NCBI GenBank assembly: GCA_944325585.1
Contig: CALVAS010000012.1
Coordinates: forward strand, 1 to 35,145
DNA length: 35,145 nucleotides
Source of the DNA: Candidatus Gastranaerophilales bacterium
GTDB taxonomy: Bacteria > Cyanobacteriota > Vampirovibrionia > Gastranaerophilales > Gastranaerophilaceae
Direction of reading: 5' to 3'
Made by a program: the position numbers and the translations under genes. Below, in pieces: positions 9,076-27,119 of the stretch; position 1 is the first letter of the stretch, and the number at the start of each line of letters is the position of its first letter. The notes beneath the pieces are model-generated. The model was given only the letters and a program-made list of their open reading frames with translations. It made no database searches and was not told the DNA's origin.

Positions 9076-11103
9076 CTATTCTTTTTCCTTAAGCATTTTT
9101 TCATAATACTCTAATTTATCGAGAAGCGGTTTATATTTTTCATTAAGCTCTCTGCGGGTTTCATCGGGATTGCTGCTGTTTGCTATTGTCATATCCAGCT
9201 TTGCGCGTACAGCTATTTTTAAAACTTCTGGGATATTCAATGCTGTCGGATTGTCGCTTGAGAGGTTTTCGTAATATTTATCTATAAAGTCAGGTGCAAT
9301 TCTTTCGCGCCAGTTAATGTCATTTGAAGAACCGCCGATATTATAAACAATATTTTTGTCATTTATTCCTAAAATATCGGCAAAGGAAACCATAATTTTC
9401 TCTTTGGTAAATAATTCGGCAAATTTTGCTTTTACAAGTTCTCTGTCCGCATTTGCAAGATCATCTTCTATTTTGGGCGCTCCGTTTGAGTAGCCTGAAA
9501 TCTTATCAAGGAATTTTTCTTTTTCTTCTGCCCGCGCAGGATCCTGATTCAGATATTGTGCTAAGTATTCCGCATCCCAGGCCGGATTCCACCTTCTCCA
9601 ATCATTGTCATCTTTAAGCATATTCATTGCGGGTATTGAATCGTGCGAACCTACAAGGAACCAGTTTTCATTTCCTTCATTTGCAGCCTGTTTTCCTTCG
9701 GTTTGAATTATCTTAGGCAGATTATTTTCTTCGTAATATGTCTTTTTAAATGTTTCCGGCTCACAGCAAATATTTTCCCAAACCGGTTCAGTCTTATCAA
9801 TATCATGTTCTTTCAGTATCGGCAAAACCAGGCGCTCTAATATTCTCAAATAATTCTGGTAATCATCAAACTTGTTGCCTTCTTCATCTGTAATTTGTGA
9901 CATAAAGTTGCCATGAACTTTGCTTTTTATTTGCTTGCCGTTGTTATCAAATTCAATTGTGGATTCCTCGTATATGAACGGGTCAATCAAGCCTAACGCG
10001 TGGTCAATACGAATATTTTCACAATTTTCAAGTGCATGCTCAAGTTTTTCTTTCAAAAATTCGCCGCCGATATTAACCCCGTCATATCCTACAAAAAGTT
10101 TTCTTGGATTAAGTACCGGAATCCCCCAGGTTTGATACGGAGTGTCGCCGGATTCGTATGTGCCGACAGAATACCCGTCCAAAAATGCTTCACGGAATCT
10201 CCAGGCGTCCATTTTGGAGCAGCCGATTAGAAAATCCGAAAAATATTTGAAGTTTAATTTATCACGAAAATCTTTGTTTTCTTTTATTTGTTTTTTTACA
10301 ATAAACTGTTCAAATTGATATTCTTCAATCGGGTGTTTGAATTTTTCGGTAAGTTCTTTGTATCTTTCTGCCGCTGTAGGATTTCCGTTTCTGATTTCTG
10401 CCATCAGGTTGGAATCCAATCTGTCCCATTTTGTGTAATCTTCTGTGTTGTAAATTGAAGCCAGAACCCGATAAACGCCTTCTTCCTCTGTTTGTTGTCC
10501 GCGAGTTTTTTTACTGTATAATCGGGAGTTTTTAAAATTTGTGAATTCATTATTAAGCGTTATAGCATTTGGATGACCTTTTGCCAAATTCTTTCTGAAA
10601 TTTCTGTATGCTTCCTGCAATGCTCTGTAATAAATAATTTTGGCTTCTTTGAAGTCGGAAAATGCATAATTTTTGTCGTTAGGTTCAATAGGCAGCGTAA
10701 TATTTTCGTAAGTTTGTTTACTTAAAATCCTGCCGTATTTATCGGTAGTCAGAGCTTTTAAATCTATAAAGAGCGGATTTTCGTTAAGCGCAGAAGAGTT
10801 GTATGGCGACGGATTATCAGCATACAATGAACCGTTCGGACCGAGTTGATTGCCGGTAAATCCGTATAACTTTAAAAAGTTAATCCAGTTTTTGGCGCCT
10901 TCTCCGTATGGTGAACCGATAAATGTATCGCGGCCGGTTGCCGGAAAAACTGATCCGTGGGTAATTGCGATTCGTTGTTTTACTCCTGCAACTTTAAATC
11001 CGTCTTCAATCGTTAATTGTAAATCTCTTTCTTCATCCTTTCTCGGTCTGCGTTGAAAAGACGGACTATTGTATATTCTGTTTTGAACCGGTAATATGCG
11101 CAT
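9076..11103 (-). CDS. divergent 4-alpha-glucanotransferase (GH77, amylomaltase-like) with N-terminal FQ tag
   Basis: 675 residues. GH77 enzymes transfer alpha-1,4-glucan chains, acting in glycogen or maltodextrin metabolism. Catalytic positions can be placed: nucleophile Asp367 in RIDHALGL, acid/base Glu443 in WENICCEP (usual AEDLG-like site), and Asp488 in GSHDS (usual THD). 'YGFTGNQLGPNGSLYADNPS' near residue 80 matches the substrate-site region. The family core is about 500 residues; here an insert of about 130 residues lies before the catalytic strand. The first 20 residues (MRILPVQNRIYNSPSFQRRP) form a tail like those of other tagged proteins, with Phe16-Gln-Arg instead of Phe-x-Gly, and no signal peptide follows. 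It is the last gene of the bamA run, 50 bases after the FlhA-like gene, with a poor ribosome binding site. Confidence 0.78.
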   Translation of the reverse strand: MRILPVQNRIYNSPSFQRRPRKDEERDLQLTIEDGFKVAGVKQRIAITHGSVFPATGRDTFIGSPYGEGAKNWINFLKLYGFTGNQLGPNGSLYADNPSPYNSSALNENPLFIDLKALTTDKYGRILSKQTYENITLPIEPNDKNYAFSDFKEAKIIYYRALQEAYRNFRKNLAKGHPNAITLNNEFTNFKNSRLYSKKTRGQQTEEEGVYRVLASIYNTEDYTKWDRLDSNLMAEIRNGNPTAAERYKELTEKFKHPIEEYQFEQFIVKKQIKENKDFRDKLNFKYFSDFLIGCSKMDAWRFREAFLDGYSVGTYESGDTPYQTWGIPVLNPRKLFVGYDGVNIGGEFLKEKLEHALENCENIRIDHALGLIDPFIYEESTIEFDNNGKQIKSKVHGNFMSQITDEEGNKFDDYQNYLRILERLVLPILKEHDIDKTEPVWENICCEPETFKKTYYEENNLPKIIQTEGKQAANEGNENWFLVGSHDSIPAMNMLKDDNDWRRWNPAWDAEYLAQYLNQDPARAEEKEKFLDKISGYSNGAPKIEDDLANADRELVKAKFAELFTKEKIMVSFADILGINDKNIVYNIGGSSNDINWRERIAPDFIDKYYENLSSDNPTALNIPEVLKIAVRAKLDMTIANSSNPDETRRELNEKYKPLLDKLEYYEKMLKEKE

Positions 11104-11153: not shown

Positions 11154-12629
11154 TTAAATAATTCCTATAATTTCTATTCCGAAATTGCATCCGATTTCTT
11201 CTCTTGTGAGAACAGTTATGTTATTAAGATAATTTGACAAAAGTGTAAAAAATAAATGTCTCAATTCCATCGGAACCAGAATTTTCGGCTCTTTAATTCC
11301 GCTTTGTTTTGCCTTTTTGGTTAATTTTTGCGCGAGTTTTTCCGCATATTCTCCGTCAATTTTGATTATAAAATCTTCATCTTCTTCAAAACTGGGCATA
11401 AAAGATTCCAGAGTTTTTTCGGAAACTTCAAAAAGACTGATAACTCCGTTGTCATTTGCATATTTTGCACAAATTCTTCTTGACAGAGCAAGACGAACCT
11501 TTTTCAGTAAATCAGATTTTGCGCTGTCCTGTGCAAAATCATTCATCTTTTCAAAAATATAGGTGATATCTTTTATGGATACACGCTCGCGAATAAGGCT
11601 TGTCAAAATGAATTTCAAATCCGATAATGAAATAAAATCAGGAATCAAATTTTCAACAAGAAATTCGTTTCTTTTGCTTACAACATCTATATATTTTTCA
11701 ACGTCGCCGTAATCCATCAATTCTTCGACATATTTAACGGCAACATGCTCCAGAGCACGTCCGATATATTCTGCTCCGGTCATGCCCTTTTCCCAAAAAT
11801 CTTTTGTTTTGCTTTTTTCTATCCAGACGACTTTTTCTCCTGTTATAAAATCAGTGTCATATATTGAGTTTTTAATTTTTGTTTCAAGATTAAGTTCATC
11901 TTCAAAATACATTGTGTAATTCGGATAAACACACGCTCTAAATACGTCAAGCCCGCGGATTCTTATTGCAAATTCATACGGATTTAAACTTTCATCATCC
12001 TGAAAAACAATTTTTGGAATAATATATCCGAGTTCTTCTGTCAATTTTAATCTTGATTTAACTGTTTCTGCCAGAAGAGTTTCGTCGGTATATTCAGAGT
12101 CGCTTTCAACATATTCAATAAGTTCATCGCTCAAATGTATCGAAAGTTTCTCTTCATAAAGTTTTTCATACATAACATCAGGAGAGGTCGCTTTGGCAAG
12201 TTTTTGTTTCAATTCATCCAGCTCTTTGAGATTTGCGGAAATTTTATCGTTTAATTTTTTTCTGCTGACTGATGCCGGAGCCTCTTTTTCCAGTTCTTTT
12301 TTGATTTTTGTTATTTTGTTCTGCTGATTTTTAATTTTTGCCTGAATGTCAAGACAATTCTCATACGGCGAAAGTTTTGGAGAAAGCATTTTTTCCATCT
12401 GGCTTTTGAATGTTGAAATATTTATCACATCAGAGGTTGAAGATTCTTCATCCGTTTTTGTTTCGGACATAAAAATGCAGTTGAATTTAATCCCGTCGTC
12501 AGTTTCAACCTCATTCATGCTGTATAGCTCCCAGCCGTTCATAGACATTTCGTTCAGCAGATTTTGAAGTTCCTGCATATTTTCTCCTGAACAGGTTTTT
12601 ATAATATACTGCATTTTTTTGTTAAACAT
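11154..12629 (-). CDS. soluble FlhA-C-like protein: DUF4177-like domain + coiled coil + cytoplasmic domain of the type III export gate
   Basis: 491 residues, no membrane segment. Residues 6-56 look like a DUF4177-type domain (LLNEMSMNGWELYSM). Residues about 94-147 are a Lys/Glu-rich coiled coil. Residues about 160-491 follow the whole cytoplasmic domain of FlhA/SctV: a vWA-like start, 'ELGYIIPKIVFQDD', 'FAIRIRGLDVFRACVYPN', 'EKVVWIEKSKTKDFWEKG', 'GRALEHVAVKYVEELMDYGD', 'LVENLIPDFISLSDLKFILT' with 'LIRERVSIKDITYIFEKM', 'VRLALSRRICAKYA', and a C-terminal 'VLTREEIG' block. In flagellar and type III secretion systems this domain forms a nine-fold ring that receives chaperone-substrate complexes beside the FliI ATPase, but it is normally joined to eight membrane helices, missing here. 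AGGAG sits in the end of udp, four bases upstream, so translation is coupled. Role unknown; a docking or scaffold ring is an inference. Confidence 0.8.
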   Translation of the reverse strand: MFNKKMQYIIKTCSGENMQELQNLLNEMSMNGWELYSMNEVETDDGIKFNCIFMSETKTDEESSTSDVINISTFKSQMEKMLSPKLSPYENCLDIQAKIKNQQNKITKIKKELEKEAPASVSRKKLNDKISANLKELDELKQKLAKATSPDVMYEKLYEEKLSIHLSDELIEYVESDSEYTDETLLAETVKSRLKLTEELGYIIPKIVFQDDESLNPYEFAIRIRGLDVFRACVYPNYTMYFEDELNLETKIKNSIYDTDFITGEKVVWIEKSKTKDFWEKGMTGAEYIGRALEHVAVKYVEELMDYGDVEKYIDVVSKRNEFLVENLIPDFISLSDLKFILTSLIRERVSIKDITYIFEKMNDFAQDSAKSDLLKKVRLALSRRICAKYANDNGVISLFEVSEKTLESFMPSFEEDEDFIIKIDGEYAEKLAQKLTKKAKQSGIKEPKILVPMELRHLFFTLLSNYLNNITVLTREEIGCNFGIEIIGII

Positions 12630-12633
12630 TTAA

Positions 12634-13410
12634 CTACTCCTGATTTTTGTCTTTTTCAATGAGAATTTTCAACGCTTCAATTGCCGTTTTGATTGCCATA
12701 TCTGTGTCGTGAATTACCGGATTTTCAAGATTCAATTTTTCACGTTCCTGATTTGCAACGGTTAAAAATACTGATCCGACTTTGACATTTAAGGCGCTTC
12801 CGACAACAAACAGTGCCGCAGATTCCATTTCCGATGCCTTACAGCCCAATTTTTTCCATGCTTCCCACTTGTTTATCAGTTCATAACTTACCGGTGATTT
12901 TTCAGGGCTGTGCTGCCCGTAAAATGAATCTTTGCATTGTACGATTCCTGTATGAAACGGATGATTCAATTTTTTGCCGGCTTCAACAAGTGCGTTTGTT
13001 ATATCAAGGTCAGCAACTGCCGGAAATTCTATCGGAGCGTATTCTTTAGACGTTCCTTCCATTCTGACGGCTCCTGTTGCAATTACAAGGTCGCCGCCTT
13101 TGACGTTAATATCAATCCCGCCGCATGTACCGACACGGATAAATTTTTCCGCACCTATTTTGACAAGTTCTTCCAACGCAATTGAGGCTGACGGGCCGCC
13201 TATACCGGTAGAGGTAACTGATACTTTTTCACCGTTAAGGTAGCCGGTATAAGTCGTATATTCCCTTCTGTCCGCAATAAGTTGGGCGTTGTCAAAATAT
13301 TCGGCAATTTTTTTGCATCTTTTAGGGTCGCCGGGCAAGATTACATATTTCCCTGCATCGCCTTCTTTTAAGCCGATATGATATTGTTCTCCGTTTTGAG
13401 AATATTTCAT
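12634..13410 (-). CDS. udp: uridine phosphorylase family nucleoside phosphorylase
   Basis: 258 residues from ATG 13410, with AAAGGA eight bases upstream; an earlier TTG in frame is rejected. The enzyme splits a nucleoside with phosphate into base and ribose-1-phosphate. Seen motifs: '[17 protein letters not shown]' (phosphate site), '[16 protein letters not shown]', '[10 protein letters not shown]' and '[10 protein letters not shown]' (ribose site Met-Glu), '[11 protein letters not shown]'. The pattern 'STGIGGPS', 'EFPAVAD' and the length match uridine phosphorylase more closely than purine enzymes. It lies between skp and the FlhA-like gene with gaps of 24 and 4 bases, an unexpected place for a salvage enzyme. 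Confidence 0.9.
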
Positions 13411-13434
13411 ACATAATCCTTTCAAAAATTAAAA

Positions 13435-13884
13435 TTACGGCATTGCTTTAAGTTTTTGAATTACCTGATCGGTAATGTCAACTCCGCCTACAAATATTAC
13501 ACGGAAATCAACAATCGCATCAAGTTTCTGCTCTACAAGAACCTGTTTTGCTGCAGCCTGAATTTTATTGAAAACTTGCTCTTCTTTTTGTGCTTTCAAT
13601 TTGATAAGAGCTTCTTGCTTTGCATTAAATTCCCTTGCTGTTGCATCTTCAAAGTTTTGTTTTTTTAACGGCGTGTCGAGTGCTTTGTATTGTTTTTCTT
13701 TGTCAACCATAAATTGTTGAAGTTCCAAACTTTTTGCATCAACTTCTTTTATTGCAGCCTGTGCAAATGCAAAATTGTCTTGAACCTTCGGATAATTAAT
13801 ATATCCAACACCGCCTGCCATTGCTTTGCTGCCGAAGGCGCATAATCCTATAACCAATAAAGCTGCTGCTAAATTTTTTTTCAT
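13435..13884 (-). CDS. skp: Skp/OmpH-family periplasmic chaperone
   Basis: 149 residues with a clear signal peptide (MKKNLAAALLVIGLCAFGSKAMA, cleavage after AMA, shown here as three short parts of one segment at residues 1-23). The mature part begins 'GGVGYINYPKVQDNF', as Skp/OmpH proteins do, then a long Lys/Glu/Gln-rich helical hairpin (about residues 40-120) that would form the tentacle, then a short beta segment. Skp trimers hold unfolded outer-membrane proteins in the periplasm. Its place 16 bases after bamA supports this job. Ribosome binding site AGGAGG before the start. Confidence 0.85.
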   Translation of the reverse strand: MKKNLAAALLVIGLCAFGSKAMAGGVGYINYPKVQDNFAFAQAAIKEVDAKSLELQQFMVDKEKQYKALDTPLKKQNFEDATAREFNAKQEALIKLKAQKEEQVFNKIQAAAKQVLVEQKLDAIVDFRVIFVGGVDITDQVIQKLKAMP

Positions 13885-13900: not shown

Positions 13901-16096
13901 TTAGTAAATTAAGTCACCTACACCGAATGTGAAGTATCCGCCTTGGTTTCCGTTTTCACCGGCATTGGTGAACGGAATACCGTAATCAATTGAGAGCGGT
14001 CCCATTCCCGGAATATACAATTTCAAACCGACACCTGCCGTGATTGCCTGGAGCGGTCTGTCGTACAATGTATTTGTAACTGTCGGGTTAAATACCTTAC
14101 CTGCATCAGCCCAGACAGTGAATCTGATATTGTTTAAGAAATTAACTTTTCTTGCCAGTCTTGTTCTGTCCAAAAAAGGAATAGGTGTTGCAAATTCTGC
14201 AGATCCCATTATGAACGCATCACCCGTACCTACACCGCTCATTTTGAAACCGCGGATTGTATAAGGGCCGCCTAATCTGTACATCATAACTTCAGGCATG
14301 TCATCACCATGGAGTTTGCCGCCGCCCTTGGCTGTGAATGATAATGATGATTTTTTACCTATCGGAATATAATGTTTAATAGATCCGGTCAATTTTCCGT
14401 GGGTTTTGCCAAAATCATTAAGTCCGATTTCTTCGTCAAATCTTAAACTTGCAATTGTTCCTTTTCTTGTTACGGTGCCGCCTTCACGTGAATCATAGAC
14501 CAGTGCTGGGCTTAATGACATAAAAAGACCGCCGTCAAGTTGTTTTGCACGTTCTTCAATCGGAATGTTATATCTTTGATATAGGCTTGCAATTTTGTTA
14601 AAGTCGCCTTCACGTACGTCAATATTTTCAACACCAAGAGAAAATGTTGAGGTCAAATGTTTTGCTTTTCTTATTCTGTGAGCAACAGTCATTTCCGCAC
14701 CGTAGCGTCTTTCAATAGCAAGCGGCACCTGATAACTTCCGAAGTCTCTAAAGAATAATTTGCTCATTAATGAAGTGTCTGCATTGAAGAAATAAGGTTC
14801 AAAGAAACTTAATTCAACCTGCATGTTCATTCTTCTTTTGATAGATGCGTCGTTAAGGATTACACCGGAACCGACCAGACCGTTAAGAGAAACTCTCTGA
14901 TTACGTCCGCGGAAGTTGTTGTCTGCGATTCCAAGAGAACCGAAAACCCCTGTTACTGTATCAATACCGCCGCCGATAGAGATATTTGCGGTCCGTTGTT
15001 CCTGAACATTAATTGTGATATCGTATGCATCCGGAATATCAGGGCATGGAGTAATTTCGCGGGTTACATCTTTGAACGCCTGAGAAGCGTATAATCTTGC
15101 AATATCTTCTTTTAAGATATTTTCATTGTAAATCATTCCGGGTTCTGACAGAACGTTTCTTTCTATTACGAAGTCTTTTGTTTTTTCGTTGCCGGCAATA
15201 AGAATACGATTAATTGTACCTTCTTTCAGGCTGATGTTGATTGTTCCGTCAGGATCGTCCGTTACGGAATCTATTCTTGCAAGAATATAACCTTTTGATG
15301 CATAACATTGCTGGATTTTTGCGATTGCTTCATTTAACCGGGCAATATTTTGCGGTTTTCCTTTCATGTCAATTAAGTACGAAAGAATTTCTTCCGTTGA
15401 CACAACTGTATTTCCTTCGATTGTGAAGTCTGTTACCGGTGCGTTTTCTTCAAGAATGATTTTGAGGGTAATTGTGCCGTCAGGATTGTTAACCGGAATT
15501 GCGCGCATTTTTTCGCTGAAGTAACCGAGTTGATAAATATTGCGCAAGTCTTCCTGAACAGTGTTTCGATTGTAGATTTCACCTTTCTTTTGTTTGATTT
15601 GAGTAAGAATTACGTCAGGTGAAATGACGTTTGTTCCGTGGATTTCTATATCTTTTATGTATTTGTCGCCTTTGGCGGATGTTCTTGAAACGGCCGGAGT
15701 TTCTTCTGTTCCTTCCTGATTTATGTAATATTGCTCTTGCGGCTTTGCTAACGGTTTAAATTGAGGGGTTTCCTCTGAATCCGGTGATATCGGAGGTTCT
15801 GTTTCAACAGGCTGCGTTTCCGGAGTTTCGTTCGGGGGCTCTTTTATTTCCTGTTTTTGTTCTTTATTCTTGAAAAAATTAAAGAATTTTTTTTCTTTTT
15901 TCTCTTTTTTGTTTTTTGCAATCAAAACATCAGAATCAACAGATTGGTTATAATCATAATTTTCTGCCATGTCACTTCCAACCGTGTCCATGGCATTATA
16001 ATCCCATAAACTGTCTGCTCCCAAGCTCGATAACGGATTTAATGTCATTAATGATAATGATATTAATATTGAATATATGATTCTTTTTGATTCCAA
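13901..16096 (-). CDS. bamA: BamA/Omp85 outer-membrane assembly protein, three POTRA domains
   Basis: 731 residues from a TTG at 16096 with GAGGA upstream. Order: signal peptide (to about residue 27), a Lys-rich then Pro/Glu/Thr-rich linker (about 60-140), POTRA1 (about 146-218, 'IEIHGTNVISPDVILTQI'), POTRA2 (about 222-295, 'FTIEGNTVVSTEEILSYL'), POTRA3 (about 296-370, 'ILIAGNEKTKDFVIERNV'), then a 16-strand barrel with the conserved 'GGPYTIRGF' loop motif and a C-terminal strand ending FGVGDLIY. It folds and inserts outer-membrane proteins. Three POTRAs and the Pro-rich linker match cyanobacterial Omp85 rather than the five-POTRA proteobacterial type, a useful taxonomic clue. It heads the run skp - udp - FlhA-like - GH77, all with short gaps. 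Confidence 0.93.
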   Translation of the reverse strand: MESKRIIYSILISLSLMTLNPLSSLGADSLWDYNAMDTVGSDMAENYDYNQSVDSDVLIAKNKKEKKEKKFFNFFKNKEQKQEIKEPPNETPETQPVETEPPISPDSEETPQFKPLAKPQEQYYINQEGTEETPAVSRTSAKGDKYIKDIEIHGTNVISPDVILTQIKQKKGEIYNRNTVQEDLRNIYQLGYFSEKMRAIPVNNPDGTITLKIILEENAPVTDFTIEGNTVVSTEEILSYLIDMKGKPQNIARLNEAIAKIQQCYASKGYILARIDSVTDDPDGTINISLKEGTINRILIAGNEKTKDFVIERNVLSEPGMIYNENILKEDIARLYASQAFKDVTREITPCPDIPDAYDITINVQEQRTANISIGGGIDTVTGVFGSLGIADNNFRGRNQRVSLNGLVGSGVILNDASIKRRMNMQVELSFFEPYFFNADTSLMSKLFFRDFGSYQVPLAIERRYGAEMTVAHRIRKAKHLTSTFSLGVENIDVREGDFNKIASLYQRYNIPIEERAKQLDGGLFMSLSPALVYDSREGGTVTRKGTIASLRFDEEIGLNDFGKTHGKLTGSIKHYIPIGKKSSLSFTAKGGGKLHGDDMPEVMMYRLGGPYTIRGFKMSGVGTGDAFIMGSAEFATPIPFLDRTRLARKVNFLNNIRFTVWADAGKVFNPTVTNTLYDRPLQAITAGVGLKLYIPGMGPLSIDYGIPFTNAGENGNQGGYFTFGVGDLIY

Positions 16097-25772: not shown

Positions 25773-27119
25773 ATGCAGAATTTGGATGAAAGCAGACTTA
25801 TTGATTTGAAACAGCGGGTTAAAAACAAACTTGATGAGACAACTCTTTTTAAGTTTAAAGGTACTGTTTCAAAACTTTTGGGTTTGACTGTTGAGGTTAA
25901 ACTTCCGGGGCTAAAAATCGGTGATTTGTGTTATATTGAAACTGATGCAGGTGAAAAAAAGCCTGCTGAAGTTGTTGCATTTAAGGGTGAAGCCGCGCAG
26001 CTTCTTCTTCTTTTGGACGGAAACGGCATCGGGCAGGGAAGTCTTGTAACATCTATGGGAAAACCGATTATTATTCCTGTAGGTGATTTTCTTCTCGGGC
26101 GCCTGATAAATCCGATGGGTGAACCGATTGACGGAAAACCGCTTGATACAACAGGTGCAACCTGGCGTCCTATTGAAGGGCCGCCGCCAGGGCCGTTTGA
26201 AAGACCGATTATTAATGAAATTTTCTCAACTGGTGTTCGTGCAATTGACAGCTGTATGACAATGGGATGCGGACAGCGTTTGGGACTGTTTGCGGGCTCA
26301 GGTGTCGGCAAAAGTACGCTTCTCGGTATGATTGCACGAAATTCCGACGCGGATGTAAACGTTGTTGCTCTGATTGGAGAACGCGGACGGGAAGTTAAAG
26401 AATTTGTCGAGGATGCTCTCGGTGAAGAAGGTATGAAAAAATCGGTTCTTGTCTGTTCAACGGGCGACCAGCCGCCTTTGATTCGTCAAAAGGCTTTGCA
26501 GGCGGCAACTGCGGTGTGTGAATACTTTAGAGATCAAGGGAAGAAAGTTTTCCTGATGACCGATACGGTTACAAGATGCGCGATGGCAGGGCGTGAAGTC
26601 GGGCTTTCAATCGGTGAACCTCCGACTATGAAGGGGTATCCTCCGTCAATATTTTCATGGCTTCAAAAGGTTCTGGAGCGCGCCGGAAACAGTCCGAAAG
26701 GTTCAATTACAGCCCTTTATACTGTTTTGATGGAAGGCGACGACATTTCGGATCCGATTGTTGATATTGTTAGAGGGATTGTTGACGGTCACATATTTCT
26801 GTCAAGAAAAGTCGCTGAGATGAACCATTATCCTGCTATTGATGTTCTGGGCAGTATTTCAAGGCTTATGTCCTCAATTGCGACGCCGGAGCATAAGGCT
26901 GCCGCCGGAAAAATGCGTGCGATAATGGCGTTGTATCGCGAAAACAAGGATTTAATTGATGTCGGGATGTATCAGCCGGGGACAAACCCGAAACTTGATG
27001 TTGCAATAGAGATGATGCCGAAAATTAATGCATTTTTGCAGCAGCGGACAACTGATATCGTGAGTATGGACACGACTGTCAGCACACTTGTTGATATGAT
27101 GAAGGATGTGGAAATTTAG
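25773..27119 (+). CDS. fliI: FliI/SctN-type flagellar or type III secretion export ATPase
   Basis: 448 residues, normal length. N-terminal beta-barrel (about 20-95), then the ATPase core with Walker A GSGVGKST (near residue 177), 'VVALIGERGREVKEFVEDAL', Walker B region 'KVFLMTDTVTRCAMAGREVG', and 'MKGYPPSIFSWLQKVLERAG', which sets the type III/flagellar ATPases apart from F1 and Rho. The hexamer unfolds and feeds export substrates with FliH, FliJ and FlhA. None of these partners is adjacent; the only related protein in the window is the soluble FlhA-C-like protein at 11154-12629. No ribosome binding site; the promoter indicates a leaderless mRNA. A flagellar versus non-flagellar role cannot be decided from this window. 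Confidence 0.93.
   Translation: MQNLDESRLIDLKQRVKNKLDETTLFKFKGTVSKLLGLTVEVKLPGLKIGDLCYIETDAGEKKPAEVVAFKGEAAQLLLLLDGNGIGQGSLVTSMGKPIIIPVGDFLLGRLINPMGEPIDGKPLDTTGATWRPIEGPPPGPFERPIINEIFSTGVRAIDSCMTMGCGQRLGLFAGSGVGKSTLLGMIARNSDADVNVVALIGERGREVKEFVEDALGEEGMKKSVLVCSTGDQPPLIRQKALQAATAVCEYFRDQGKKVFLMTDTVTRCAMAGREVGLSIGEPPTMKGYPPSIFSWLQKVLERAGNSPKGSITALYTVLMEGDDISDPIVDIVRGIVDGHIFLSRKVAEMNHYPAIDVLGSISRLMSSIATPEHKAAAGKMRAIMALYRENKDLIDVGMYQPGTNPKLDVAIEMMPKINAFLQQRTTDIVSMDTTVSTLVDMMKDVEI

Follow-up and report, generated by a model that had tools for sequence, protein, structure and literature searches.

In the usual account, FlhA/SctV is a gate in the membrane, and cargo docks on its cytoplasmic ring. 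The window analyzed here, a stretch of 35,145 nucleotides from a Candidatus Gastranaerophilales bacterium (source genome G000; 96% complete), raises the question of what the cytoplasmic domain of such a protein (FlhA-C) does when it is encoded without the gate. The gene concerned lies at positions 11154..12629 of the minus strand, and its 491-aa product, a free-standing FlhA-C paralogue, is referred to below as sFlhAC.

A free-standing FlhA-C protein

We found that the gene is an intact open reading frame with an ATG start, exactly as the preliminary description of this DNA had it, and that it is conserved across the order. In a search with the PF00771 (FHIPEP) profile, positions 307–653 (of 657) matched residues 136–480 of sFlhAC (E = 1.8e-50), and profile positions 1–306 were without a match in the protein. 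Similarly, positions 314–678 of the FlhA profile TIGR01398 matched residues 129–491 (E = 5.8e-46), with a score of 157 bits as compared with the full-length cut-off of 772 bits. The best PDB sequence matches obtained with phmmer were solved FlhA-C chains (3mix, E = 3.8e-25).

The N-terminal membrane half of about eight transmembrane (TM) helices is absent: no hydropathy window of sFlhAC was ≥1.6, and the scan detected no hydrophobic stretch fit for a signal peptide or membrane anchor. The same scan applied to FlhA1, the membrane FlhA of the order, from the source genome detected seven segments. A membrane part hidden by a frameshift or an assembly error could be ruled out, because the upstream udp gene ends 4 bases before sFlhAC and leaves no space for a lost membrane part, because no hydrophobic window was found, and because the gene is a free open reading frame in 38 of 40 related genomes. 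Together with the four-subdomain fold predicted by AlphaFold (see below), these results bear out the earlier claim of a complete soluble FlhA-C domain. By domain, sFlhAC belongs to the FHIPEP superfamily; it is not a FlhA/SctV export gate, since it lacks the membrane half and since its standard docking residues are, apart from the D456 equivalent, replaced.

Distribution and origin of sFlhAC

We surveyed related genomes and found sFlhAC in 38 of 40 relatives, with identities down to 35% in other families; these copies are free open reading frames of about 480–545 aa, one of which is cut by a contig end. In a 386-genome sample of the phylum, counted as rows with matches, sFlhAC was present in 169 of the 170 sampled genomes of the same family. 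The exception, G015, scored only at the lower level usual for full-length FlhA, and sampled genomes from other orders of the class gave only weaker FlhA-type matches. Both G015 (98% complete) and G016 (93%) contain FlhA1 and lack sFlhAC, which indicates that sFlhAC is dispensable at times. Another genome, G248 (97% complete), encodes sFlhAC intact (C3:34668-36125; L208, L209) together with FlhB. FlhA1 was not detected in it, and fliI was not found within about 19 kb of sFlhAC; the lack of FlhA1 may reflect an assembly gap or a loss.

A tree was computed from 52 FlhA-C domains, 16 of which were from sFlhAC. All 16 formed a single clade (support 100/100), so that the protein spans seven families as one clade, and a branch supported at 98/88 separated FlhA1, sFlhAC, the chimeric protein p593 (see below) and an FlhA1-like protein of G360 from the flagellar FlhA (FlhA2) and most other FlhA proteins of the phylum. 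The tree program warned of long branches and of an unlike amino-acid make-up in several sFlhAC rows, and the attachment point of the clade is therefore less sure than its single origin. Judging from these sequences, sFlhAC arose once on the FlhA1 lineage, no later than in the common ancestor of Gastranaerophilales. In this event, the membrane half was replaced by a DUF4177-like domain and one helix, with the break near the border between TM8 and the linker.

Domain architecture and predicted fold

The AlphaFold model of the single chain, built from an alignment of 18 family members (mean pLDDT 80, pTM 0.63), places a small DUF4177-like domain and then a helical hairpin ahead of a full FlhA-C fold. 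From the N-terminus, and with all coordinates on the minus strand, the model comprises a beta-alpha-beta-beta domain at residues 6–56 (12462..12614; pLDDT 91 when predicted alone with AF2, 12 invariant columns), a disordered spacer at residues 57–83 (12381..12461; pLDDT <50 at residues 58–83), the hairpin at residues 88–147 (12189..12368; helices 88–114 and 121–147) and the FlhA cytoplasmic domain at residues 158–491 (11157..12158), in which VIA-align and Foldseek comparisons recovered all of the subdomains D1–D4. The hairpin takes the place of the coiled coil assumed in the preliminary description. The model aligned with 7amy, the nonameric FlhA-C of V. parahaemolyticus, at a VIA-align Z of 30.1 (338 aligned residues, 4.6 Å), and with 6ch2 at a Foldseek E of 2.5e-22. 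Moreover, phmmer aligned residues 126–488 with residues 326–693 of FlhA1 from the source genome, and the hairpin from about residue 126 onward aligned with the FlhA linker. This alignment indicates that the linker is partly kept, which puts the break close to where TM8 meets the linker.

The proposed DUF4177-like character of the N-terminal domain is a reasonable label that falls short of a formal assignment. PF13783 (DUF4177) was matched at E < 0.1 by 13 of the 18 family members (best 3.1e-4), below the Pfam cut-off; the copy in the window scored 14.8 bits, as compared with a curated cut-off of 25. No protein in 13 Gastranaerophilales genomes exceeded the Pfam cut-off, and sFlhAC alone was detected there in a search for other DUF4177 proteins as a clue to partners. 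The N-terminal domain had no PDB sequence match, and its best structural scores (Foldseek E 0.04, VIA-align Z 6.6) were too weak to mean much for a fold assignment. Among these weak matches (Z 5–6.6 overall), the nearest predicted fold was the C-terminal domain of human KCTD5 (Z 6.6), and dodecin, a ring-forming protein, was among the weaker ones.

Replacement of the docking pocket

In FlhA, the dimple that binds chaperones is formed by D456, F459 and T490 (PMC8166844). We compared these positions, on the D2 side of the domain (11778..11921, minus strand), among the 16 sFlhAC copies and found that the D456 equivalent is Asp in 16/16, that the F459 equivalent is T/S/N (or K/L) in all, and that the T490 equivalent is replaced in 16/16, mostly by R/K. 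The H491 equivalent is likewise replaced in 16/16 (A/N); both of the latter positions sit just C-terminal of D2. In the GYXLI motif, every sFlhAC copy has Ser at the G368 equivalent, where every FlhA1 and FlhA2 row has Gly, and the FlhA1 and FlhA2 rows also retain the dimple positions (D/E, Y/F, T/S) and H491.

Eight residues are newly fixed in sFlhAC (S167, E169, W279, G282, I289, D306, Y307 and N363), which indicates constraint rather than decay, and five fixed residues are common to sFlhAC and FlhA (P205, W269, E348, E360 and R379). Subdomains D1 and D3 are retained. D3 (11481..11717, minus strand) is both the most conserved subdomain within sFlhAC (0.55) and the nearest to FlhA1 (0.39), and D2, D4 and the linker are furthest from FlhA1 (0.15–0.20). 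The good conservation of D3 may bear on the formation of a nonameric ring, for which it is suggestive only. Within the genus, dN was about 0.08 and dS about 1.5, indicating strong purifying selection.

Gene neighborhood

In the window, sFlhAC stands fourth in a minus-strand row headed by bamA (Omp85 with POTRA; 13901..16096), followed by skp (OmpH-like; 13435..13884), udp (nucleoside phosphorylase; 12634..13425), whose stop is 4 bases before the sFlhAC start, and, beyond sFlhAC, a malQ-like 4-alpha-glucanotransferase (9076..11103). The gaps of 4–50 bases are consistent with cotranscription of the five genes. Promoter and terminator sites around sFlhAC were no more numerous than in shuffled sequence. 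The gene order given in the preliminary description is real, and most of the 80 closest loci preserve the row, some with a pyrimidine phosphorylase in place of udp; the bamA-skp linkage was also observed in two loci (L144 and L146) with identity down to 45%. However, this linkage is missing in families f2–f7 and in the f1 genera of L141–L143 and L145, in which sFlhAC is still present. Thus, sFlhAC is kept across the order, and the bamA operon is limited to part of family f1. Outside this part, the neighbors of sFlhAC are unrelated and mostly not export genes.

Export genes nevertheless recur near sFlhAC in a number of genomes. A fliI gene lies 4–18 kb from sFlhAC in many relatives of the same family, and in the window it is on the opposite strand, about 13 kb away. 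In G022 and L108, sctQ-fliOPQR or fliPQR was found 5–9 kb from sFlhAC, and in family f7, fliJ-fliK-flgD-flgE is directly downstream, although that row could be part of the flagellar system and not of the FlhA1 one. Most of the other families gave no export gene within about 10 kb of sFlhAC. As several of about ten independent placements of sFlhAC are near export genes, the link is suggestive, not decisive.

The FlhA1-type export machine of the host

The fliI (sctN) gene of the window (25773..27119, plus strand) encodes the type III secretion (T3SS) ATPase of the FlhA1-type system (PF00006, 1.3e-82; PF18269 T3SS_ATPase_C, 3.4e-27), which is 79% identical to the FliI adjoining FlhA1 in another family. 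The remaining parts are encoded elsewhere in the source genome: fliF (YscJ_FliF_C PF08345, 5.1e-15), a fliG-position gene without a FliG match in Pfam, fliH and flhA1 as one row (L006); sctQ-fliO-fliP-fliQ-fliR (L155); flhB with fliJ-, fliK- and FlgE-like genes (L154); and the rod genes flgF-flgG-flgB-flgC (contig C21, L206). FHIPEP proteins were found in 40/40 relatives searched, and FlhB, SpoA (SctQ/FliN-type) proteins, FliI and rod proteins each in 39/40.

By comparison, flagellin was present in 18 of the 40 relatives and was found neither in the source genome nor in its 13 congeners. Relatives with flagellin generally hold second copies of the flhA, flhB, fliI and SpoA genes. From these two observations, we conclude that the FlhA1 set is a flagellum-derived core with a rod and without a filament. 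Partial flagellar gene sets are known in Gastranaerophilales, including MEL.A1, in which the filament and L/P-ring genes are absent, and earlier work took them for flagella that are incomplete or in decay (PMC5877343, PMC3787301). The retention of the export core across the order without flagellin argues instead for a function. Across families, D3 of FlhA1 (96% identical) and FliI (79%) are unusually conserved. Upstream on the contig of the FlhA1 operon, a 529-aa protein starting MGMAASQARYLGLTARKTNVEYEGQQ and having no Pfam match is encoded (L006:625-2214); a relative of it (58%) lies 7 kb from sFlhAC in L136 (G037), and the protein is a possible export substrate.

Other reduced or free FlhA-C proteins

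Contrary to the preliminary description, FlhA-C is not invariably attached to the membrane gate, as other free-standing FlhA-C proteins occur elsewhere in the phylum (G042 and G061). In G042, an HTH_17 DNA-binding domain is fused to FlhA-C in a 413-aa protein (L201:6315-7556) that is divergent from fliP, fliR and flhB and is possibly a regulator sensing the export state. G061 encodes several further FHIPEP-domain proteins with differing N-terminal parts (L202:4651-5754, L202:5841-7577, L203:4629-6410, L204:1657-3114 and L205:1773-3089), most of which lack the usual membrane half; the N-terminal half of the L202:5841-7577 product is hydrophobic and divergent. Like sFlhAC, these proteins of G042 and G061 combine a free FlhA-C with another N-terminal part, and L201 is beside export genes; however, their N-terminal modules differ from that of sFlhAC and they belong to other lineages of the phylum, and the likeness in domain may or may not reflect a common origin.

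The source genome itself encodes p593 (contig C70, L005:383-2164), a 593-aa chimera in which an N-terminal part like the FliG-position protein and two TM helices precede FlhA-C. Similar copies were found in L196, L197 and L198, and the protein is confined to the genus in our sample; it looks like a collapsed copy of a fliG-fliH-flhA operon. Like sFlhAC, p593 is a copy of FlhA-C that falls on the FlhA1 side of the 98/88 branch and retains D1, D3 and D4; it differs from sFlhAC in its FliG-like N-terminal domain, its two TM helices, its deletion of D2 and its limitation to one genus. In G037, a 335-aa reduced FlhA (L199:472-1479) has two TM segments, D1 and D3, and lacks D2 and D4.

Possible functions of sFlhAC

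We propose, with about even confidence, that this FlhA-C paralogue works in the cytosol with the FlhA1-type export apparatus, as an adaptor or regulatory subunit whose docking face is altered. This proposal draws on the two FlhA-C paralogues of the source genome, sFlhAC and p593, in both of which the docking domain is changed and the core is kept, and it points to a soluble component, not described before, of flagellum-type export in Gastranaerophilales. The protein would be a cytosolic accessory of the FlhA1-type machine, for which the source genome has the rod and no flagellin. Because D1 and D3, which form the framework of the FlhA ring, are kept and the standard chaperone pocket is lost, sFlhAC would act on the FlhA1 ring or on its soluble partners, either by stacking on the ring, by entering it as a docking-altered subunit or by binding FliJ, FliH or FliI. 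The N-terminal domain might recruit a partner or hold an oligomer together, and the effect on export could be in either direction. A wider conjecture, which we advance tentatively and consider rather unlikely, is that FlhA-C was freed several times in non-photosynthetic Cyanobacteriota and that sFlhAC, joined in one genus by p593, provides ring-competent subunits unable to dock the usual chaperones; in mixed or stacked rings with FlhA1-C, these would modulate secretion by a flagellum-derived machine that has only a rod, and flagella and injectisomes are not known to have a regulatory layer of this kind.

There is some chance, although not a large one, that sFlhAC is instead a soluble docking or holding platform, a free counterpart of the FlhA-C ring, which would bind other substrates or chaperones via a remodelled D1/D2 face and pass them to the FlhA1 gate. 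The invariant D456 equivalent and the new invariant residues around the pocket (W279, G282, I289, S167 and E169) indicate a face remodelled under constraint and not decayed, and soluble cytosolic shuttling parts have been described for the Yersinia injectisome (PMC5490264); on the other hand, the aromatic residue and the threonine that hold known chaperones are gone, and no chaperone gene was identified near sFlhAC. We regard it as unlikely that the freed domain has moved out of type III export and serves some other process, as an oligomeric scaffold or a sensor whose output would be the DUF4177-like domain. Such a role would fit G248, which retains sFlhAC without a detected FlhA1, the neighborhoods mostly unrelated to export beyond part of one family, and the fusion in G042, which shows that the domain can bear an output module. 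However, export-core genes occur in 40/40 relatives, and the G042 fusion is itself divergent from fliP-fliR-flhB.

The preliminary description had pointed to another membrane system, with sFlhAC as a possible free-standing ring enlisted for outer-membrane protein assembly (BAM/Skp). This reading agrees with the arrangement bamA-skp-(udp or pyrimidine phosphorylase)-sFlhAC, which recurs in L144, in L146 and in almost all of the 80 closest loci; we nevertheless judge it highly improbable: the row with bamA, skp, udp and malQ is confined to part of one family, sFlhAC being retained elsewhere; udp and malQ suggest ordinary housekeeping neighbors; and sFlhAC has neither a signal peptide nor an anchor segment, whereas Skp and the POTRA domains of BamA act in the periplasm. 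The branching of sFlhAC on the FlhA1 side, the matching export apparatus and the fliI gene in the window also speak against it. That sFlhAC is a functionless, decaying FlhA duplicate or an assembly artefact can hardly be entertained; the protein has no more than the C-terminal half of FlhA, but order-wide conservation refutes this reading in practice, given one clade in seven families, intact open reading frames, the low dN relative to dS, the fixed new residues and the fixed N-terminal domain. Under the favored reading, that of an accessory subunit of the FlhA1 machine, a soluble order-wide copy with an altered docking face would open ring function to study apart from the membrane, and sFlhAC would mark an unstudied flagellum-derived export machine retained by abundant gut bacteria.

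Relation to known systems

Compared with FlhA/SctV, sFlhAC shares the D1–D4 fold, part of the linker, fixed residues, and matches in sequence and structure. It differs in having a DUF4177-like domain and a helix instead of the TM half, in the replacement of the chaperone dimple and GYXLI, and in being encoded away from the flhA operon. Among open-access papers, we found none naming a free-standing FlhA-C protein, which is weak evidence. Filament-less flagellar basal bodies in Buchnera and flagella-like loci in non-flagellated species (PMC3459982) resemble the source genome in having a flagellar export core without a filament, and a free-standing FlhA-C is without mention in that paper's passages on these loci. 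Di Rienzi et al. 2013 listed two flhA entries common to all four Melainabacteria genomes; the second is on a separate contig, is present even in MEL.A1, which lacks filament genes, and appears in the gene listing of that paper as a plain flhA, without remark on a missing membrane half (PMC3787301). We infer that this second flhA is probably sFlhAC.
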